From positions 186,001 through 250,000 of the forward strand of contig NZ_JAIFAG010000001.1 of the NCBI RefSeq assembly GCF_020012125.1: a stretch of DNA of 64,000 nt, read 5' to 3'. This document shows positions 10,078 to 28,913 of the stretch, in pieces; within the stretch, counting starts at the first letter, position 1; every line of letters begins with the position of its first letter. Position numbers and translations under genes: made by a program. Source of the DNA: Hymenobacter psoromatis. Lineage in GTDB: Bacteria; Bacteroidota; Bacteroidia; Cytophagales; Hymenobacteraceae. A model generated the notes under the pieces. That model was given only the letters and a program-made list of their open reading frames with translations, did no database searches and was not told the origin of the DNA.

Positions 10078-12486
10078 ATGTCTGCTATTTTTCTTCGCCG
10101 CTTTTCGCGCCTGTTACTGCTGGCGCTCCGGCTGGCGGCCCTACCCCCCGCTTTGGCCCAAGCCCAGGCCGTGCCCGACTCACTGCCGGGCCTCAGCCGG
10201 CCGTTTGCGCGCTATACCCGGCAGGCGTTGGTCGAGCAGCTGTTCGCGCACCTCGACCGGCCCACCTACGCGGCCGGCGAAACCATGTGGCTGAAAATCT
10301 ACGCCGTGGATGGCACCCGGCACCAGCCGCTAGCCCTGAGCAAAATCGCCTACGTGGAGCTGCTTAATGCTCAGCAGCAGCCCGTGCTGCAAGCCCGGCT
10401 GGCGCTGAGCCGCGCCACCGGCCACGGCTCGCTGGCCCTACCCCCCGACCTGCCCGCCGGCCCCTACGTGCTGCGCGCCTACACCAGCTGGATGCGCAAT
10501 TTCAGCCCCGAAGGCTACTTCCACTGCCCGGTCACGGTGCTCAATACTGCCCGCCCGCCCGGCCCCGCCGCTCGGCCCGCCGCGGCCGGCTACGACGTGC
10601 AGTTCTTCCCCGAAGGCGGCCAGCTGGTGCGCGGCCTGCGCAGCCGCGTGGGCCTGCGCGTGGTGAACGCGGCCGGCCAGGGCGTGGCCGCCACCGGCAT
10701 TGTGCGCGATGCGCAAGGCCAGCCCGTAGCCACATTCGAGACGCTGAAATTCGGCCTGGGCAGCTTTGATTTCACGCCCGCACTGGCCGGCGCGGGCTAC
10801 GTAGCTGCTGTTCAAATAACGGATGGACAAGATATTAGTGTGCCGCTGCCAGCCGCCACTGAAGCCGGCTACGTGCTGCGCCTGGCCGACGCCACCGCCG
10901 ACTCCGTGCGCCTGACGGTGCAGGCCCAGGGCAGCGCCCTACCCCCCGGCCCGGTGGCGGTGCTGGGGCACGCCGGCCAGCGCATCGTGGCCGCGGTTCG
11001 TGGCCCGCTGGTCGGGGGGGTAGGGGAGTTTGCGTTTGCCAAAAAAGACCTGCCCGACGGCACGATGCGCTTCACGCTGTTTGACGGCGCGGCGCGGCCC
11101 CGCGCCGAGCGGCTGTATTTTCAGCGGCCCCGGCACCCGCTGGCGTTGGTCGTGGCCGCGCCGGCCGGCTACGCCCCCCGCGCCCGCGTGGAAGTGCAGC
11201 TGCGCGCCGACGCGCCCGCCAACGCCTCGCTGGCCGTGTACCAGCTCGACTCGCTGAACGCCGCCGAGCCGGCCGACATTGATACGTTTTTGAGTTTGAC
11301 CTCGGAGCTGAAAGGCCACGTGGAAGCGCCCAACTACTACCTGCGCGATACCAGCGCTACCGCCCGCGCCGCCCTCGACAACCTGCTGCTGACCCAGGGC
11401 TGGAGCCGCTTCCGCTGGGACGATGTGCTGGCTGCCCGCCCGCCCGCGCTCCCCTACCTGCCCGAGGTGAACGGCCACTTCGTGCGCGGCCGCCTCACGG
11501 ACCGCCGCACCGGCGCGCCGGCCGCCGGCCTCACCGCCTACCTGGCCTCGCCGAGCCGGGCCATTCGGCTGTATAATGCTATTAGCCAAGTAGATGGTAT
11601 TTTACGGTTTGAGACGAACCCGTTTTACGGCCCTACCCAGCTGGTGCTACAAACCGATTATTTGCGCGATAGCACGTATCACTTGGAGCTGTTGAGTCCG
11701 TTTTCGACGCAGTTCGCGGCCGGACAGGCTCGGCCTTTCGCGCTAAGCCAGGGGCTGGCGGCGGCCCTCACCCAGCGCTCGGTGCAGGTGCAGACGCAGC
11801 GCAGGTTTTTCAGCCGCTTTGAGAATGCGTATACCCAACCCGCGCACGATACGCTGGCCTTTTATGGCCGGCCCGACGAGCAGTATTTACTGGATGACTA
11901 CACCCGCTTTCCGGTGCTGGAGGAAGTGATGCGCGAGTACGTGCCCGGCGTGCTGGTGCGCAAGCGCCGCGACGGCTTCCACTTCCTGGTGGTGGACAAG
12001 CGCAACGACGCCACGTTTCGCAACAACCCACTGGTGCTGCTCGACGGCGTGCCGGTGTTTGATGTGAATAAGATAATGGCTTTCAGCCCCTTAAAAATCC
12101 GTAAGCTCGACGTGGTAGATGGCCACTTTTTCCACGGCCCCCTCACCTACGACGGTGTGGTGAGCTACACCACCTACAAGGGCGACCTGGCCGGCTTCCC
12201 CCTACCCCCCCAGGCGCTGCTCGAAGAGTACGAGGGTTTGCAGGGCGAGCGCGAGTTTTTCGCCCCGCGCTACGAAACCGCCGCCCGGCAGCAAAGCCGC
12301 CTCCCCGACTTCCGCAACCTGCTCCACTGGCAGCCCGACATGACCCTGACGCCCGGCCAGCCCCGCACGCTCACCTTCTACACCTCCGACCAAGTGGGCC
12401 GCTACCTGGTAGTAGCCCAGGGCCTCGCCGCCGATGGCCGCGCCGGTAGCGCCCGCCTGGTGCTGGAAGTGAAGCCGGCGCTGTGA
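10078..12486 (+). CDS. cassette A gene 4: large exported protein with MG2-like start and plug-like C-terminus
   Basis: An 802-residue protein with an Arg-rich n-region and signal peptide ending near ALAQAQA. Residues about 45-150 resemble a macroglobulin MG2 domain (RPTYAAGETMWLKIYAVDG, LPAGPYVLRAYTSWM). Several beta-sandwich segments follow, including a carboxypeptidase-regulatory-like one near residue 470. Around residues 610-700 the sequence resembles a TonB-receptor plug (VLEEVMREYVPGVLVRKRRD, then LVLLDGVPVFDVNKIMAF). No beta-barrel follows; the tail is short and ends LEVKPAL. The ATG at 10078 is chosen because upstream codons in this frame overlap the DUF4249 gene. It may be a periplasmic or surface partner of the gene 2 receptor. 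Function unknown. Confidence 0.86.
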   Translation: MSAIFLRRFSRLLLLALRLAALPPALAQAQAVPDSLPGLSRPFARYTRQALVEQLFAHLDRPTYAAGETMWLKIYAVDGTRHQPLALSKIAYVELLNAQQQPVLQARLALSRATGHGSLALPPDLPAGPYVLRAYTSWMRNFSPEGYFHCPVTVLNTARPPGPAARPAAAGYDVQFFPEGGQLVRGLRSRVGLRVVNAAGQGVAATGIVRDAQGQPVATFETLKFGLGSFDFTPALAGAGYVAAVQITDGQDISVPLPAATEAGYVLRLADATADSVRLTVQAQGSALPPGPVAVLGHAGQRIVAAVRGPLVGGVGEFAFAKKDLPDGTMRFTLFDGAARPRAERLYFQRPRHPLALVVAAPAGYAPRARVEVQLRADAPANASLAVYQLDSLNAAEPADIDTFLSLTSELKGHVEAPNYYLRDTSATARAALDNLLLTQGWSRFRWDDVLAARPPALPYLPEVNGHFVRGRLTDRRTGAPAAGLTAYLASPSRAIRLYNAISQVDGILRFETNPFYGPTQLVLQTDYLRDSTYHLELLSPFSTQFAAGQARPFALSQGLAAALTQRSVQVQTQRRFFSRFENAYTQPAHDTLAFYGRPDEQYLLDDYTRFPVLEEVMREYVPGVLVRKRRDGFHFLVVDKRNDATFRNNPLVLLDGVPVFDVNKIMAFSPLKIRKLDVVDGHFFHGPLTYDGVVSYTTYKGDLAGFPLPPQALLEEYEGLQGEREFFAPRYETAARQQSRLPDFRNLLHWQPDMTLTPGQPRTLTFYTSDQVGRYLVVAQGLAADGRAGSARLVLEVKPAL

Positions 12487-21120: not shown

Positions 21121-22770
21121 CTAGGCTTTATATAGCAGCTCGTAATATTCCCGCGCCATGCGGGTGCTCTCAAACTCGGGCTCCACGTCCTTCATGGCCG
21201 CTTTCACCACTTTCAAGAACTGCTTAGGTTGGTCGTAGTACATTGGTATCACCGTATTTTCGAGCACGGTGAGCAGGTTATCAGCCTCGTGGTCATCTTT
21301 TTGCGCGTCGGGTAGCGTCACGTTGGCGTGCGCGATGAGGAAGCTGTTTTCGCCGTCCTTGGCAAATTCGGGAATCCAGCCGTCGGCGATGCTCAGGCTC
21401 ACGCAGGCGTTCATGGCGGCGGTCATGCCGCTGGTACCGCTGGCCTCGCGGGGGTAGCGCGGGGTATTGAGCCAGATGTCGGAGCCCTTCTTCATCTCGG
21501 CACTTAGGGCCAGCTCGTAGCCCGTGAGCACGGCGCAGCGCTTGAGGTTCAGCGTCTTGCGAATGATGGTGTTGAAGATGTCAATCGCGCCGTAGTCCTT
21601 GGGGTAGGGCTTGCCGGCCCAAATGACCTGCACCGGCCGCGCATCATCGCTCACGAGTTTCACAAAGCGCTCAAAATCACGCAGGATGAGGTCGGCGCGC
21701 TTGTAGGCGGCGAAGCGCCGGGCCCACACGATGGTCAGCGCGTCGGGGTCGAGCAGGGTGCCGGTCTGGTCGGCCACGGTCTTGAAAAACGCCACCTTCA
21801 GCTCGCGCTTGCGGGCCAGTAGGGCCTTGTCGTCCTTGGCTTTTAGGGCGGCGGCCAGTTGCGGGTCGCGCCAGTAGGTGCCGTTCTGCGAGTTAGTAAT
21901 GGAAATAATGGGGCAGATGCCTTCATAGTGGCCCCACATCTCATTGGCCACCTCGCCGTGCACCTTGCTCACGGCGTTGGCCCGGCGGGCAAAGCGCAGG
22001 GCGGTGAGCGTGTAGTTGAGCGAGTCGCCGTCGAGGCGGGCCTCGCGGCGCACGTCTTCCTCGGGCACCCCGGCGAAGAAGCTCATGTCGCGCAGCAGCT
22101 TCATAGGGCGCTCCTCGTTGCCGGCCAGCTCGGGCGTATGGGTGGTGAAAACCAAGTGCTTTTGCACTTCGGCCAGGTCACGACCGTACTTTTCGTAGAG
22201 GAAAAACGCCAGCGGCAGGCCGTGGCCTTCGTTGAGGTGGTAGATGTCGGTTTTACGGCCTAGCACGTCGAGCAGCTTGCCACCGCCTACCCCCAGCACA
22301 ATGCTTTGGGCCACGCGGGTGGCGGCGTCCGGGTCGTAGAGGTGGTGTGAGATAGTGCGCGAGAGGTAGTCATTCTCCTCAATATCGGTGGTGAGGAAGA
22401 ACATGGGCGCGGTGCCGAACGTCTCGGGGGACAGGTACAAGGCCTTCACGTGCACCTCGGCATCGTGAATGGTGACCGGGAACACGAGGCCCGTGTCTTC
22501 CAAAAACGAGTATTGCTTATGCAGAAACTCGGCTTTCATGGTCTGGTCGGGGTTGCGCACCTGGTCGTAATACCCATATGTCCAGAGCATTCCGATGCCA
22601 ATTAGGTTCTGCTTCAGCTCGTAGGCCGAGCGCATGTGCGAGCCAGCCAGGAAGCCCAGACCGCCGGAATAAATCTTTAGGCTCTGGTCGAGGGCAAACT
22701 CCATCGAGAAGTAGGCAGCCGGGGCCTTGTATTTGGCCGCCGGAGCCGCCATTTTGAATTGAAATGCCAT
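21121..22770 (-). CDS. alpha-glucan phosphorylase-like GT35 protein lacking the usual PLP lysine
   Basis: A 549-residue member of the short alpha-glucan phosphorylase group. Recognisable blocks are AAYFSMEFALDQSLKIYSGGLGFLAG (substrate/phosphate loop region), HLNEGHG, FTTHTPELAGNE, WARRFAAYKRADL and EASGTSGM. In classic phosphorylases the last motif continues with the lysine that carries pyridoxal phosphate; here residue 450 is Thr (codon at 21421-21423). Either this subfamily places PLP differently or it is a glucosyltransferase that does not use PLP. The protein is shorter than the 700-850 residues of many relatives. Two GH13 genes and a sugar carrier lie across the divergent promoter region, which supports a role in glucan metabolism. 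Confidence 0.85.
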   Translation of the reverse strand: MAFQFKMAAPAAKYKAPAAYFSMEFALDQSLKIYSGGLGFLAGSHMRSAYELKQNLIGIGMLWTYGYYDQVRNPDQTMKAEFLHKQYSFLEDTGLVFPVTIHDAEVHVKALYLSPETFGTAPMFFLTTDIEENDYLSRTISHHLYDPDAATRVAQSIVLGVGGGKLLDVLGRKTDIYHLNEGHGLPLAFFLYEKYGRDLAEVQKHLVFTTHTPELAGNEERPMKLLRDMSFFAGVPEEDVRREARLDGDSLNYTLTALRFARRANAVSKVHGEVANEMWGHYEGICPIISITNSQNGTYWRDPQLAAALKAKDDKALLARKRELKVAFFKTVADQTGTLLDPDALTIVWARRFAAYKRADLILRDFERFVKLVSDDARPVQVIWAGKPYPKDYGAIDIFNTIIRKTLNLKRCAVLTGYELALSAEMKKGSDIWLNTPRYPREASGTSGMTAAMNACVSLSIADGWIPEFAKDGENSFLIAHANVTLPDAQKDDHEADNLLTVLENTVIPMYYDQPKQFLKVVKAAMKDVEPEFESTRMAREYYELLYKA

Positions 22771-23006
22771 GTAAAAAAAGGGGTAGCGAGTTGTTTCTAA
22801 GAGGGTTCGCGGCTACAAAGGAAGCGCCCGCGGCCCAAAGCTAGCGGCGCGGCCAAGCAAGTCGGCGTACTTTGGGGGCTAGCTGCCGGGACGCGCGCCG
22901 CAATGGTTTGCGGGCCAAAATGGCTTTTTTTTGGCAGGTCAGATTGGTTTTTCGACTCCGCAGCTTTTCGCTCTTTTTCCCACCCTACTTCTTCAGTATC
23001 TGCGCT

Positions 23007-24884
23007 ATGTCGGTTTTTCGCGCGTTGTTGGCCCCGCTGGCGGCCGTTTCGTTTTTGGCGGCCTCGCCGGTCCTGGCCGGTTCGCCGCTCCCGCTAGTCC
23101 GCCCGGCGGCCCGCCCTACCCCCCCCGTGCGGGTGGACCCCACGTATTGGTTTGTGGGTATGAAAAACCCGAAGTTGCAGCTGCTGGTGCACGCGCCGGG
23201 CATCGCCGCTAGCCAGGTAGCGCTGGCCGCCTACCCCGGCGTGACGCTCGACGGCTTTCAGAAGCTGGAAAGTGCTAACTACTTGCTGGTGAACCTAACA
23301 GTAAGCCCGCAGGCGCAGCCCGGCCAGCTTCGGCTTCAGTTTAAAGGTAACAAAAGCTTCACGCAGACCTACGAGTTGCGGCCCCGCAACCAGGAGGCGG
23401 CGCGCACGCAGGGCCTCACCCAGGCCGACTTTATTTACATGCTGATGCCGGACCGCTTCTCGAACGGCGACCCGCGGAACGACGTGGTGAAAGGCACCCG
23501 CGTGAGCCGGGTGGCCCGCGACTCGATGTACGCCCGCCACGGTGGCGACCTGCGCGGCATCCAGAACCACTTCGACTACCTGAAGCAGCTGGGCGTGACG
23601 GCTATCTGGCCTACCCCCCTGATAGAGAACGACATGCCCAAGGCCAGCTACCACGGCTACGCCGTGACGGACTGCTATAAAATCGACCCGCGCTACGGTA
23701 CCAATGCCGAGTATGGGCAGTTTGTGCGGGCCGCCCACGCCAACGGGCTGAAGGTGGTGCAGGACATTGTGCTAAACCACTGGGGCACTAATAATTACCT
23801 ATACCTGGACCAGCCGGCGGCCGACTGGTTTCACCACTTCCCGACCTTCACGCGCAGCAACTACAATGCGTATGCTTTGAATGACCCTCACGGCTCGGCC
23901 CTGGACCGGAAGCTGGAGAACGACGGCTGGTTTGACACCACAATGGCCGATGTGAACCAGAGTAACCCGTTGGTGGCGACGTATTCAACCCAGAATTTTT
24001 TGTGGTGGGTGGAAAGCACCGGCCTCGATGGCTACCGCATCGATACCTACCCCTATTCCGACCCGCAGTTCCTGATGGATTGGGGCAAAGCGCTGGCCGA
24101 CGAATACCCCAAGCTGACGCTCTACGGCGAGGCGTGGGAAGGCACGCCTTCTGAGCAGGCGTTTTTCGCGCAGAATATCTTCCCGCCCGTTAATGGCTTT
24201 AAGTCGAACCTGCCGGGCGTGCTGGACTTCATCACCACCTTCGCCATCGCCGACGCGCTGAAGGGCGGCGACTTGAACAAAATCTATCAATCGCTGCAAA
24301 GCGACTGGCTCTATACCGATGCCACGCGCAACGTGACCTTCCTGGATAACCACGACATGAGCCGGTTTTATTCGGTTATTGGCGAAGATTTTGCGAAGTA
24401 TAAGATGGGAATTGCCTGGCTGCTAACGTTGCGCGGTATCCCACAATTATACTACGGCACGGAGGTGCTAATGAAGAACTTTTCGGACCCCGACGGCAAG
24501 GTGCGGGAGGACTTTCCGGGCGGCTGGGCGGGCGATAAGCTCAACTATTTTAAGGAGCGGCCGGGGCAGGCGGGCGCGGCGTTCGACTATGTGAGCAAGC
24601 TGGCCAACTACCGGAAAGCGCACCCGGTGCTGAGCAGCGGTAAGCTCATGCAGTTCATCCCGCAGGATGGGATTTATACCTATTTTCGGTACAATGAGGC
24701 TGATTGCGTGATGGTTATCGCAAATAACACGGACCAGGCAAAAACGGTGGACGGCACGCGGTTTGCGGAGCGCACCAGCGGGTTTGCTTCCGGGGTGGAG
24801 GTAGTGAGTGGGGTAGGGGTGTCGGATTTGAAAAGCCTAACGGTGCCAGCACGCACGGTTTGGGTAGTAGAATTGCGGAAGTAA
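23007..24884 (+). CDS. GH13 cyclomaltodextrinase/neopullulanase-like enzyme, exported
   Basis: A 625-residue GH13 enzyme. The ATG at 23007 gives a signal peptide cleaved near VLAG; the longer frame from 22872 is unlikely. Residues about 40-130 form an N-terminal cyclomaltodextrinase-type domain. The (beta/alpha)8 barrel follows (IYMLMPDRFSNGDPRND calcium-loop region). The nucleophile is the Asp in DGYRIDTYPY, the acid/base Glu is in LYGEAWEGT and the third acid is in FLDNHDMSR. A small beta domain ends the protein. It resembles SusA-type neopullulanases that trim malto-oligosaccharides in the periplasm. It probably once led directly into the amylase gene at 25383; the GxxExxY unit now lies between them. 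Confidence 0.92.
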   Translation: MSVFRALLAPLAAVSFLAASPVLAGSPLPLVRPAARPTPPVRVDPTYWFVGMKNPKLQLLVHAPGIAASQVALAAYPGVTLDGFQKLESANYLLVNLTVSPQAQPGQLRLQFKGNKSFTQTYELRPRNQEAARTQGLTQADFIYMLMPDRFSNGDPRNDVVKGTRVSRVARDSMYARHGGDLRGIQNHFDYLKQLGVTAIWPTPLIENDMPKASYHGYAVTDCYKIDPRYGTNAEYGQFVRAAHANGLKVVQDIVLNHWGTNNYLYLDQPAADWFHHFPTFTRSNYNAYALNDPHGSALDRKLENDGWFDTTMADVNQSNPLVATYSTQNFLWWVESTGLDGYRIDTYPYSDPQFLMDWGKALADEYPKLTLYGEAWEGTPSEQAFFAQNIFPPVNGFKSNLPGVLDFITTFAIADALKGGDLNKIYQSLQSDWLYTDATRNVTFLDNHDMSRFYSVIGEDFAKYKMGIAWLLTLRGIPQLYYGTEVLMKNFSDPDGKVREDFPGGWAGDKLNYFKERPGQAGAAFDYVSKLANYRKAHPVLSSGKLMQFIPQDGIYTYFRYNEADCVMVIANNTDQAKTVDGTRFAERTSGFASGVEVVSGVGVSDLKSLTVPARTVWVVELRK

Positions 24885-24892
24885 TTTTTTTT

Positions 24893-25366
24893 AACCGCGG
24901 AAGACGCGGAAGTACTCGCGGAAGACGCGGAAGCTCATGCACGAAAACGATATTACGTATTTGATTAGGCAATCTGCTTATAATGTGCATACTGCACTGG
25001 GACCGGGGTTGTTGGAGTCTGCTTATGAGGCGGCATTAATGCACGAATTGCAGAAAGCTGGCCTGACGGTTAAAAGTCAGGTTGGCTTGCCGATGAACTA
25101 CGGTGAGGTCAGTTTGGATATAGGCTACCGCATAGACCTGCTGGTGGAAGGCAAAGTGATAGTTGAGCTAAAAGCTTTGGAAAATATCCTGGACGTTCAT
25201 CACATGCAGTTAGTGACTTATTTAAAGCTATCGGGATGCCGGGCGGGCTTATTGATTAATTTCAATGTGGCACGCATTAAAGAAGGTATTTTTCGGAAAG
25301 TTAACGGCATGACCGAGCCGTTGCCTCCGCGCCCTTCCGCGAATACCTCCGCGTCTTCCGCGGTAA
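24893..25366. mobile_element. inverted-repeat-bounded GxxExxY unit
   Basis: The left end (24893-24935, AACCGCGGAAGACGCGGAAG then TACTCGCGGAAGACGCGGAAG-like) and right end (25324-25366) are inverted copies of about 43 bp with a few mismatches. Each arm is itself made of repeated GCGGAAGACGCGG units. The enclosed DNA encodes only the GxxExxY protein, whose last ~22 codons lie in and beyond the right arm. No transposase is present and no target-site duplication is obvious. I infer a small mobile or mobilisable unit inserted between two GH13 genes. Confidence 0.6.
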
Positions 25367-25386
25367 AAACATCGCCTACCCCATGA
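24937..25386 (+). CDS. GxxExxY protein (PD-(D/E)XK nuclease-like)
   Basis: A 149-residue GxxExxY family protein. The signature is Gly24, Glu27 and Tyr30 in PGLLESAYEAAL. A PD-(D/E)XK-type arrangement follows: Asp67 in YRIDLLVEGK and Glu77-x-Lys79 in VELKA, then a QLVTYLKLSG helix and GLLINFN strand. Catalysis has not been shown for the family as far as I know. The gene starts directly after the left inverted repeat. Its C-terminal tail (from about residue 127, low complexity, Pro/Ser/Ala-rich) is translated repeat DNA. Its TGA overlaps the ATG of the next GH13 gene (ATGA), which may couple their translation. Confidence 0.88.
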   Translation: MHENDITYLIRQSAYNVHTALGPGLLESAYEAALMHELQKAGLTVKSQVGLPMNYGEVSLDIGYRIDLLVEGKVIVELKALENILDVHHMQLVTYLKLSGCRAGLLINFNVARIKEGIFRKVNGMTEPLPPRPSANTSASSAVKTSPTP

Positions 25387-27173
25387 AAAATCTCTTACTA
25401 GCCCTCACCTTGCTCTTGCCCCTCGTGACCCTCGCCCAAGACCCTAACACCACCGACGAGATTCCGCAGGATAACAAGCTCGTTATCTACCAGCTCCTAC
25501 CCCGCCTCTTCGGCAACAAGGTGGCGCTGAACAAACCCTACGGCACCATCACAGAAAACGGTTGCGGGAAATTTGACGATATCAATGACCTGGCCCTGAC
25601 CAAGATAAAGGAATTGGGAGCCTCGCACGTGTGGTACACCGGCGTGCTGGAGCACGCCACCATGACCAGCTACCCCCAGGCCGGCCTGCCCGCCGACGAT
25701 GCCGACGTGGTAAAAGGCCGCGCCGGCTCGCCCTACGCCGTGAAGGACTACTACGACGTGGACCCCGACCTGGCGGTGAACAAAAAGAACCGTCTGGAAG
25801 AGTTTCAGGCCCTCGTCAAGCGTACCCACGACCACGGTTTGAAAGTTATCATCGACTTCATTCCCAACCACGTAGCGCGCTCATATCACTCCGATGCCAA
25901 GCCGGCGGGTGTGGTAGACCTGGGCGCGCAAGATGACAAAGCCAAGGCGTTCGCGCCCAATAATAACTTCTACTACCTGCCCGGCCAGCACTTCGTGGTG
26001 CCGGCCGGCTACAACCCGCTGGGAGAACTGAAGGGGCCAGGCGAAGACGGCAAATACAACGAATTTCCGGCCAAGGCCACTGGCAACGACGTATTTTCGG
26101 CCGCGCCCACGGTTGATGACTGGTTTGAAACCATTAAGCTCAACTACGGTGTGGACTACCAGCATGGTCGCCAGCTGTATTTCGAGCCGATACCCGACAC
26201 CTGGCGCAAGATGCGCGACATCTTGGTGTATTGGGCTGAGAAGGACGTGGACGGCTTTCGCTGCGACGTGGCCGAGATGGTGCCCGTCGAGTTTTGGGCC
26301 TACGTTATCCCCGAAATTAAAAAGGTGAAGCCCGGCATTCTCTTCCTCGGCGAGGCCTATACTCCCAAAGAATACAATACCTACCTCACCAAGGGCCACT
26401 TCGATTTTTTGTACGATAAGGTGGGCCTCTACGACGGCCTGCGCCGGCTGATGCGCCAGGAAGGCACCACCGACGACATCACCCACGTTTGGAAAACGGA
26501 GTCGCGCGGCTTCGGCTCGCACATGCTGCGCTTCCTGGAAAACCATGACGAGCAGCGCATTGCGTCCCCGGAATTTGCCGGTGACCCGCGCCGCGCCATC
26601 CCGGCCATGACGGTATCGGCCACCCTGAGCAGCGGCCCGGTGATGCTCTACATGGGCCAGGAAGTGGGCGAGCCCGCCGCGGGCAGTGAGGGCTTTTCGG
26701 GAGCCGACGGCCGCACCACCATTTTCGATTACTGGGGCGTGCCGCAGTGGCAGAAGTGGCTGAACCAGGGCAAGATGGACGGTGGCAAGCTAAGCGAGGA
26801 CCAGCAGAAGCTGCGCGATTTTTACAAGCGCCTGCTCATGCTGGCGGGCAGCAGCGAGGCCATCCGCCGGGGCCAGTTCTACGAGCTGCAAGATGCCAAT
26901 AATCTCAGTAAAGAATACGACCAGCAGAAGGTGTACGCTTTTTTGCGCTATACCAAAGGCCAGCAGGTACTGGTGGTGGTCAACTTCAGCGATACCAAAA
27001 CGTATCGCCCTACCCTGCTCATTCCCAGCGAAGTGATGCAGCGCGTGGGCCTCGACCCGCAGCGCGTGTACACCTACCGCGACCTGCTGGGCGGCGGGGA
27101 GGCCCGGCCCGGCCTCAACCTCACCCTGGAGCCGCTGGCCGCGCTGGTGCTGGAGATAAAGCCGCGCGAATAA
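25383..27173 (+). CDS. GH13 alpha-amylase, exported
   Basis: A 596-residue GH13 alpha-amylase. It has a signal peptide (cleaved near TLAQD) and catalytic barrel: VIYQLLPRLFG, LKVIIDFIPNHVAR, nucleophile Asp in GFRCDVAEM, acid/base Glu in FLGEAYTPKE and the third acid in FLENHDEQR. A C-terminal beta domain ends LAALVLEIKPRE. An insert between strands 3 and 4 (AQDDKAKAFAPNNNF onwards) is common in Bacteroidota periplasmic amylases. Its start overlaps the stop of the GxxExxY gene. The sugar carrier gene follows 57 bp later on the same strand, so digestion and uptake are probably co-expressed. Confidence 0.93.
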   Translation: MKNLLLALTLLLPLVTLAQDPNTTDEIPQDNKLVIYQLLPRLFGNKVALNKPYGTITENGCGKFDDINDLALTKIKELGASHVWYTGVLEHATMTSYPQAGLPADDADVVKGRAGSPYAVKDYYDVDPDLAVNKKNRLEEFQALVKRTHDHGLKVIIDFIPNHVARSYHSDAKPAGVVDLGAQDDKAKAFAPNNNFYYLPGQHFVVPAGYNPLGELKGPGEDGKYNEFPAKATGNDVFSAAPTVDDWFETIKLNYGVDYQHGRQLYFEPIPDTWRKMRDILVYWAEKDVDGFRCDVAEMVPVEFWAYVIPEIKKVKPGILFLGEAYTPKEYNTYLTKGHFDFLYDKVGLYDGLRRLMRQEGTTDDITHVWKTESRGFGSHMLRFLENHDEQRIASPEFAGDPRRAIPAMTVSATLSSGPVMLYMGQEVGEPAAGSEGFSGADGRTTIFDYWGVPQWQKWLNQGKMDGGKLSEDQQKLRDFYKRLLMLAGSSEAIRRGQFYELQDANNLSKEYDQQKVYAFLRYTKGQQVLVVVNFSDTKTYRPTLLIPSEVMQRVGLDPQRVYTYRDLLGGGEARPGLNLTLEPLAALVLEIKPRE

Positions 27174-27230: not shown

Positions 27231-28913
27231 ATGGCCGCCTCTCCCGTGGTTGCTTCGTCCGGCGCGCTGCGCGTCAAGCCCCGCCTCAGCTTCTGGCAAA
27301 TCTGGAACATGAGCTTCGGCTTTCTGGGTATCCAGTTTGGGTTTGAATTGCAGAACTCCAACGTGAGCCGCATTTTTGAAACCCTTGGCGCCAACAAGGA
27401 TGACTTGCCGCTGCTCTGGATTGCGGCCCCGCTCACCGGACTGCTGGTGCAGCCAATTATTGGCTACTTCTCCGACCGAACCTGGCACCCTACCTGGGGG
27501 CGGCGGCGGCCGTTTTTCTTCGTGGGCGCGCTGCTGGCTACGCTGGCGCTGTTTTTCATGCCCAATTCTGGCTCGCTCCTGGTGGCAGCTAGTATGCTGT
27601 GGATTATGGATGCTAGCATCAACATCTCGATGGAGCCGTTCCGGGCTTTTGTGGGCGACCTACTGCCGGCCAACCAGCGCACCACCGGCTTTGCTACGCA
27701 GAGCTTTTTTATTGGAGTGGGGTCGGTTATCGCGGCTTGCCTGCCGTGGCTGTTCACCAATCTGTTTCACGTGGCCAACATTGCGCCGCAGGGCGTTATT
27801 CCGCCTTCCGTGAAATACGCATTTTACATGGGCGGGGCGGCGCTCTTTCTGGCTGTGATGTACACCGTGTTCACCACCCGCGAATATCCACCAGTGGATA
27901 TGGCCGAATTCGAGCGCGAGAAGCAGGAGGGCACCATGTTTGGCGGCATCAAAGCCTCGTTTATGGGTATTTTTAACATGCCCAAGGCCATGAGTCAGCT
28001 AGCTGTGGTGCAGCTGTTTACCTGGTTTGCGCTGTTTGCCATGTGGATTTACTCTACCAATGCCATTACCAGCAATATTTACAACATGAGGGTCAGCAGC
28101 GACTTATATCAGCAGGTAGCGCAGCGGGTAGCACATGCCTCGGCGGCGGTAAAAGATGTACCTAGCAAAAGCTTCTTCGACCTGAGCCAGACCACGGAAG
28201 CCGAGAAAAAAGTGAAAGAGCTAGCCGCCCTGCGCGCCGACATCGCCGATATTACTGCCCACCAGGCAAGCAGCGCCGACAAGGTTATTACGACCAACCT
28301 GGCCGGCTACGCGCTGAAAAATATGCCGCTGACGCCCTCCGCAACTACCGACCTCAAGCGGGTGCAACAGCAGTACAACGATGGGGCCGACTGGCTGGGC
28401 ATCTGCTCGTCGGTGCGCAACGGGGTAGCGGCCATCTTCGCGTTTTTGCTGCCCGTGCTGGCCCGGCGTACCAGCCGCCGCTTCACCCACATGCTGTGCC
28501 TGGTTATTGGTGGGTTTGGGCTGATTTCGCTGAGCCTAGTCAATGACCCGCGCCTGCTGCTGGGGTCAATGGCGCTAGTGGGCATTGCCTGGGCCAGCAT
28601 TTTGTCGATGCCCTACGCCATGCTGGCCGGCGCGCTACCCGCCAATAAAATGGGATACTACATGGGCGTATTCAACTTTTTCATCGTTACGCCGCAAATC
28701 ATCGCCTCGGTAGGCTTAGGCTTCCTGACCAACCACTTGTTCAACGGCAACACGCTGGGCGCGCTGGTGCTGGGTGGGGCGGGGATGATTCTGGGGGGCC
28801 TGCTCACGCTGCGCGTGCAAGACACTGACGACATTCGCCTGCCCAACAACATGACGCCGGCCGAAAACCTGTCCTATGATGCGCTAATGGGCGACATAAA
28901 TCCCAAGATTTAG
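27231..28913 (+). CDS. MFS sugar (maltose/sucrose-type) transporter
   Basis: A 560-residue inner-membrane carrier of the MFS glycoside-pentoside/SUT-like group used for maltose in Bacteroidota. Twelve hydrophobic segments can be traced. Diagnostic loops are GYFSDRTWHPTWGRRRPFFF after TM2 and MEPFRAFVGDLLP in TM4. A long polar loop (about residues 295-385, charged and coiled-coil-like) separates the two six-helix halves. It follows the alpha-amylase gene and would import the maltose it releases. The substrate is inferred from context; sucrose or trehalose cannot be excluded. Confidence 0.9.
   Translation: MAASPVVASSGALRVKPRLSFWQIWNMSFGFLGIQFGFELQNSNVSRIFETLGANKDDLPLLWIAAPLTGLLVQPIIGYFSDRTWHPTWGRRRPFFFVGALLATLALFFMPNSGSLLVAASMLWIMDASINISMEPFRAFVGDLLPANQRTTGFATQSFFIGVGSVIAACLPWLFTNLFHVANIAPQGVIPPSVKYAFYMGGAALFLAVMYTVFTTREYPPVDMAEFEREKQEGTMFGGIKASFMGIFNMPKAMSQLAVVQLFTWFALFAMWIYSTNAITSNIYNMRVSSDLYQQVAQRVAHASAAVKDVPSKSFFDLSQTTEAEKKVKELAALRADIADITAHQASSADKVITTNLAGYALKNMPLTPSATTDLKRVQQQYNDGADWLGICSSVRNGVAAIFAFLLPVLARRTSRRFTHMLCLVIGGFGLISLSLVNDPRLLLGSMALVGIAWASILSMPYAMLAGALPANKMGYYMGVFNFFIVTPQIIASVGLGFLTNHLFNGNTLGALVLGGAGMILGGLLTLRVQDTDDIRLPNNMTPAENLSYDALMGDINPKI

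Follow-up and report, generated by a model that had tools for sequence, protein, structure and literature searches.

The stretch of Hymenobacter psoromatis DNA analysed here, 64,000 nucleotides long and hereafter called the window, encodes on its minus strand (21121..22770) a protein of 549 residues which its open reading frame, profile matches and structure model identify as a GT35/TIGR02094-like alpha-glucan glucosyltransferase without the PLP lysine. We refer to this protein and its relatives lacking the lysine as T-type, and to those that keep it as Lys-type. The T-type protein of the window reads REASGTSGMTAAMNA, with Thr as residue 450: plus-strand bases 21421-21423 read ggt, hence the codon ACC on the minus strand, and Thr450 stands in REASGTSGMTAAMN. 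In the alignment, Thr450 falls on Lys646 of Escherichia coli MalP (sequence from the MG1655 record), the Lys of the GTGNMK motif at MalP residues 641-646. An excerpt of PMC11046441 names K646 as the PLP-bearing Lys of MalP. The residues around the position are intact by alignment, and all of the following lie on the minus strand: EASGTSGM (residues 442-449; 21424..21447), with the catalytic Glu and the phosphate loop; the phosphate-site basic residues Arg352 to Lys357 (RFAAYK; 21700..21717); and the invariant active-site residues Asn293 (21892..21894) and His211 (22138..22140). The first-pass annotation had read residue 450 as Thr in an otherwise intact motif and concluded that the usual Schiff base cannot form there; codon and alignment bear out both statements.

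Divergent to this gene lies a plus-strand gene for a cyclomaltodextrinase-type GH13 enzyme (22872..24884; PF00128, PF09087 and PF10438 in Pfam), a type also found near the T-type gene in two other loci (L053 and L054). Neighbour annotation places beyond it, on the same strand, a second GH13 amylase-family enzyme (25383..27173) and an MFS transporter (27231..28913). A small gene of PDDEXK_3 (GxxExxY) type sits between the two GH13 genes (window 24937-25386, plus). Of 71 loci from outside Campylobacterota, 5 (the window among them) have the second GH13 near the T-type gene, and the 71 show little recurrent company overall (GH13 in 5, a match to the GlgE seed in 4, cyclomaltodextrinase in 3); no recognised recurrent neighbours were found at the two Halopseudomonas loci.

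The protein passes the TIGR02094 "alpha-glucan family phosphorylase" cut-off (421.7 bits, cut-off 191.7), as it does that of PF00343, the Pfam Phosphorylase model (49 bits, cut-off 27). It stays below the cut-offs of the GlgA model TIGR02095 (42.4 bits, cut-off 328.45) and of PF08323 (20.2 bits, cut-off 22.7), and has no match at E 0.001 to PF05693, the GT3 synthase model, whose sole match in the genome is a separate gene (contig C1:2713916-2715724). The AlphaFold model (pLDDT 90.8, pTM 0.89) has a GT-B fold and is closest to 9l6i, the glycogen phosphorylase of Segatella copri (Z 34.7 and 2.1 A across 534 residues), followed by starch synthase IV (Z 31.2), E. coli glycogen synthase (2qzs; Z 31.1) and MalP (Z 31.0), which are tied. 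The structure matches shown for the model contain no GT4 or trehalose phosphorylase structures, which excludes nothing. A model of a short Lys-type relative, L033 (pLDDT 83.4), gives the same picture, with Z 34.1 for its best match, 31.3 for E. coli glycogen synthase and 30.9 for MalP, so that the fold does not separate phosphorylase from synthase chemistry and was set aside as a discriminator. The GlgA-profile score was equally uninformative, the window protein reaching 42.4 bits and L033 41.

We then asked how widely the substitution is spread. With the long enzyme of the window's own genome set aside, 31 locus matches remain and all of them have Thr at this position, two of these loci being the window gene itself. 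Over all fetched loci, an alignment of 135 distinct T-type sequences (146 minus identical rows) gave Thr in 111, Ser in 23 and Ala in one. A sequencing or frame error is ruled out by this agreement, and Thr450 is genuine, neither an error nor a single-species oddity. Close full-length T-type relatives (>600 bits) were found in 42 of 395 sampled genomes of the phylum, all 42 of them in the window's own class. The other matches in this sample are long phosphorylases, or more distant short proteins (G231, G356, G131, G148), with Lys, the residue having been read in part of the long phosphorylases. T-type hosts among the matches listed include Hymenobacter, Pedobacter, Chryseobacterium, Chitinophagaceae, Algoriphagus and Zobellia, and also Sulfurovum, Sulfuricurvum, Halopseudomonas and Verrucomicrobiota MAGs; among 200 sampled Campylobacterota, the gene is present in 25. 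Proteins of this kind are common: one genome collection holds at least 590 encoding stretches, some of which may be Lys-type relatives, and the 80 loci taken from it are the best 80. The first-pass annotation had suggested that the enzyme may belong to a Bacteroidota branch: a conserved branch it is, but one that other phyla share and in which Ser or Ala may replace the Thr. T-type genes were also seen in MAGs labelled Sphingomonadales or Beijerinckiaceae (L086, L103, L105). One of them (L105) branches inside Chitinophagaceae, suggesting misbinned contigs, and these host names, perhaps with some Campylobacterales ones, may be binning errors. No relative was found among viral contigs by tblastn, nor any account of the T-type clade in the open-access literature searched.

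The T-type and Lys-type sets are split by the residue at position 450 itself, and the independent evidence is the tree. In a tree of 65 rows, for which the tree tool warned of long-branch joining, a single branch with 100/100 support separates all Lys-bearing sequences from the rest. When MalP and GlgP serve to root the tree, the clade with Thr, Ser or Ala falls within the Lys-type sequences of TIGR02094, on a long branch of 1.27 changes per column, and its sister is L033 (support 99/97). Given this nesting, loss of the lysine looks derived and appears to have happened once.

Residues that make up the catalytic site have been retained across this branch. His211, Asn293, Arg352, Lys357, Arg358, Glu442 and the GTSG loop are invariant in a 30-row alignment, Tyr418 and Trp300 are constant across the rows compared, and Arg351 is also kept in the T-type. 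About a dozen other positions have changed together, as judged from majority residues of the T-type clade against a Lys-type set of 15 sequences. From Lys-type to T-type these are Pro32 to Lys; Asp44 to Ser; Gly294 to Ala/Ser and Val295 to Gln, directly after Asn293; Thr299 to Tyr/Phe; Gly348 to Val; Phe349 to Trp; Ala388-His389 to Pro-Tyr; Lys396 to Ile/Val; Asp/Asn417 to Gly; a variable residue 419 to an invariant Glu; Ala/Gly423 to Ser; Val427 to an invariant Lys; and Trp466 to Ile/Val/His. Gly417 (21520..21522, minus strand), which precedes the conserved Tyr418, is Asp or Asn in 15/15 Lys-type sequences, and its equivalent is Asp in MalP and Gly in E. coli GlgA. Lys427 (21490..21492, minus strand) is invariant in 135/135 T-type sequences and replaced by Val, Ile or Thr in 15/15 of the Lys-type. 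Since the PLP-lysine position accepts Thr, Ser or Ala, it has the look of a site left empty, not of one that has gained a catalytic group; pocket geometry was judged from the sequence alignment only.

To see which enzymes accompany the T-type, we compared the 42 carriers with the 25 non-carriers of the class that are listed by name (113 further non-matching genomes, class not known, were left out) and with 8 carriers of other phyla. The T-type is the sole GT35 protein in 41/42 class carriers. In the remaining carrier, the genome of the window itself, a long Lys-type GT35 lies at C1:2802737-2803789; this protein (L001, an 863-residue frame) is absent from the three other members of the genus that were sampled and is a possible acquisition. 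One of the 8 carriers from other phyla (G395) has a further GT35 match on a short contig frame. Five of the 25 non-carriers have a GT35 of Lys-type length, and 20 have no GT35. Of the 42 class carriers, 28 have a full-length GT5 synthase and a further 10 have a GT3 synthase, 38/42 together, and all 25 Campylobacterota carriers have a dedicated glycogen synthase. In genome G118, glgC lies beside a glycosyltransferase frame of 412 residues. Three T-type carriers of one genus in the window's own order (G076, G111, G194) have neither a full-length GT5 nor a GT3, and neither GlgC nor GlgB reaches its cut-off in them. The idea that the T-type is the missing glycogen synthase of its genome is disfavoured by the presence of GT5 or GT3, although these three genomes lack both. 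GlgB is over cut-off in 35/42 carriers, against 13/20 genomes without GT35. An N-terminal-only GT5 synthase fragment was observed in the window's own genome (C1:4205090-4205752), and most of the genomes sampled from the class have similar frames of 260-320 residues; these are conserved and present with or without glycogen genes. Such a fragment is mentioned in an excerpt of PMC11046441.

GH77 glucanotransferases, partners of phosphorylases, tend to accompany GT35: they are found in 27/42 carriers and 4/5 Lys-type-only genomes against 1/20 genomes without GT35 (Fisher p 6.6e-6), and, among synthase-holding genomes, in 27/38 carriers against 1/12 without GT35 (p 1.7e-4). The link partly follows family lines, carriers of one family (f7) having no GH77, like the non-carriers of that family. 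A tie to the GlgE pathway, an idea that came from two loci (L085 and L111), is not general, the GlgE N-domain being found in only 15 of 75 genomes.

In Campylobacterota the T-type gene keeps more recognisable company. Within 6 kb at 22 loci, which include near-identical strains, we found GH57 (13 loci), PGM (12), an NTP-transferase-PGM fusion (12), PGI (10), PFK, GlgA, GlgB and a glucokinase-like protein (6 each) and PYK (4). These labels rest on similarity to seeds that we presumed, from their sequences, to be the proteins named; those of PGI and of the NTP-transferase fusion were confirmed by Pfam. At one locus (L151) the T-type gene ends at base 10929, where PFK begins. The fusion, of about 840 residues and with NTP-transferase, hexapeptide and phosphoglucomutase parts, was seen in glycogen clusters L143-L146 and L151-L156 and may supply NDP-glucose; no GlgC was found at cut-off in the four Campylobacterota carrier genomes searched. 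In Lys-only clusters (L155, L156) the Lys-type gene lies among the same genes that surround the T-type gene in clusters with the Thr-type only (L150, L151, L153, L154). Clusters L143-L146 hold both types together with PGI, PGM, the NTP-transferase fusion and two GH57 genes, and a long Lys-type GT35 is present in 9/25 Campylobacterota carriers, so the two enzymes need not share a job. E. coli GlgP and MalP differ in substrate, and the two types in L143-L146 may likewise differ in substrate, or in reaction.

The retained catalytic residues, the deep conservation and the fact that glycogen-making genomes with the T-type usually have no other GT35 speak for an active alpha-glucan enzyme; the dedicated synthase that almost every carrier has, GH77 as a partner and the gene neighbours speak for breakdown. 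The explanation that we favour, with the reserve due to one that falls somewhat short of even odds, is that the T-type is a competent PLP-lysine-free GT35 enzyme in the phosphorylase place of alpha-glucan breakdown. It would carry out a retaining GT-B alpha-1,4-glucan glucosyl transfer, true to its GT35 lineage, without lysine-bound PLP, and would take the place of glycogen or maltodextrin phosphorylase. Inorganic phosphate would bind at the site formed by the conserved Arg352, Lys357 and Gly loop; the other phosphate site, at the GTSG loop, would be filled by a free oxyanion or a cofactor other than covalent PLP, or be rebuilt from side chains; and the glucose 1-phosphate released would pass to phosphoglucomutase. 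Activity, phosphate as acceptor and the absence of PLP are what we infer here. According to an excerpt of PMC8950772, front-side displacement asks little of the protein and takes its proton from the phosphate, which makes phosphorolysis without lysine-bound PLP conceivable. An excerpt of PMC6411801 holds that the PLP phosphate, not the aldehyde, acts in phosphorylase chemistry, so that loss of the Schiff base alone does not exclude phosphorolysis. At the date of the review excerpted (PMC8950772), every GT35 member that had been characterised was an alpha-1,4-glucan phosphorylase. Against this reading, the active site is rebuilt well beyond the PLP lysine, 9/25 Campylobacterota carriers have a Lys-type GT35 as well, the three carriers without glycogen synthase genes or a GlgB over cut-off are hard to square with a phosphorylase of stored glycogen, family membership partly confounds the GH77 association, and PGI and PGM serve synthesis too. 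The fuller version, a PLP-independent alpha-glucan phosphorylase that arose once in GT35, rebuilt its pocket, spread over several phyla and replaced the B6 enzyme as sole GT35 in many glycogen-storing Bacteroidota, is put forward more cautiously, with perhaps one chance in a few of being right.

The first-pass annotation had suggested that the enzyme may transfer glucose without phosphorolysis, and the corresponding alternative is a return to nucleotide-sugar chemistry, in which ADP-, UDP- or GDP-glucose would occupy the pocket and the T-type would extend alpha-1,4-glucans. The small residue in place of the PLP lysine is consistent with this, as is Gly417-Tyr418, which resembles Gly354-Tyr355 of E. 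coli GlgA, residues that we take to lie at the nucleotide, where PLP enzymes have Asp/Asn-Tyr. The nearly equal closeness of the model to ADP-bound starch and glycogen synthases and to MalP might be read in the same way, but the Lys-type model is just as near GlgA, with no fold shift in the T-type, the GlgA subfamily model scores both types alike, and three other T-type proteins have no GlgA subfamily match, reaching 14.8-22.8 bits against GlgA equivalogs. The NTP-transferase-PGM fusion may provide a donor at just over half of the Campylobacterota loci, but the same NTP-transferase also accompanies Lys-type genes alone. Against the proposal stand the dedicated NDP-glucose synthase that 38/42 class carriers and every Campylobacterota carrier already hold, and gene company (GH77, PGM, PGI, PFK and maltodextrin genes) that points to alpha-glucan breakdown. 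We consider it rather unlikely, though the vacated pocket, together with Gly417-Tyr418 and the three carriers that lack a known synthase, keeps it alive.

Less probable again is that the T-type works as an ordinary phosphorylase, with PLP (or PMP) bound non-covalently or anchored on a different lysine, for example the clade-specific Lys427. The catalytic role ascribed to the 5'-phosphate rather than the aldehyde (excerpt of PMC6411801), the retention of Tyr418, Trp300, Arg351 and the GTSG loop, and the invariance of Lys427 would suit it. However, Asp/Asn417 and Lys396, which all or almost all Lys-type sequences have, are gone, the bulkier Val348, Trp349, Gln295 and Tyr/Phe299 are present, Lys427 lies nine residues past Tyr418, near a helix end in the model and not obviously by the pocket, and we see no evident reason to drop the anchor yet keep the cofactor. 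Finally, a non-catalytic glucan-binding or regulatory homologue, suggested by loss of the defining catalytic-cofactor residue and by coexistence with a Lys-type enzyme in some genomes, is improbable given a catalytic Glu, His, Asn, Arg and Lys invariant across several phyla and 41/42 class carriers with no other GT35 to regulate.

The T-type forms a large conserved branch of GT35 in several bacterial groups, whose members probably handle storage sugar by a route so far unmeasured, and it matters for the interpretation of glycogen mobilisation in Bacteroidota and Campylobacterota. Because it passes the curated family cut-off, it would be named an alpha-glucan phosphorylase despite the absent defining residue. 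If it is a PLP-free phosphorylase, it would show how GT-B enzymes do phosphorolysis without a cofactor, and that the one PLP family in which the cofactor works through its phosphate and not its aldehyde can do without PLP; if it uses NDP-glucose, evolution within GT35 would have led from phosphorylase back to synthase chemistry.

Among known systems, Segatella copri glycogen phosphorylase (9l6i, 20yr; TIGR02094) is like the T-type in HMM family, fold (30% identity) and catalytic residues. The T-type differs in its Thr/Ser/Ala for the PLP Lys, in the coordinated active-site changes and in lacking about 100 N-terminal residues and a C-terminal part of this long enzyme (aligned over 102-712 of 852). 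E. coli MalP and GlgP have in common with it the GT-B core and the His/Asn/Arg/Lys/Glu active-site set, but identity is about 20%, scores are far under the equivalog cut-offs, and the equivalents of MalP Lys646 (the PLP Lys), Asp613 and Lys583 are lost. E. coli GlgA (GT5) resembles it in fold, in the Gly-Tyr at the pocket and in having no PLP Lys, whereas identity is 16% and the GlgA profile score is far below cut-off. The retaining trehalose phosphorylases of GT4, which are PLP-free, are a case of GT-B retaining phosphorolysis outside GT35. They are thought to use front-side displacement (excerpt of PMC8950772). The T-type belongs to another family and would act on another substrate, and the likeness is one of possible working, not of descent.
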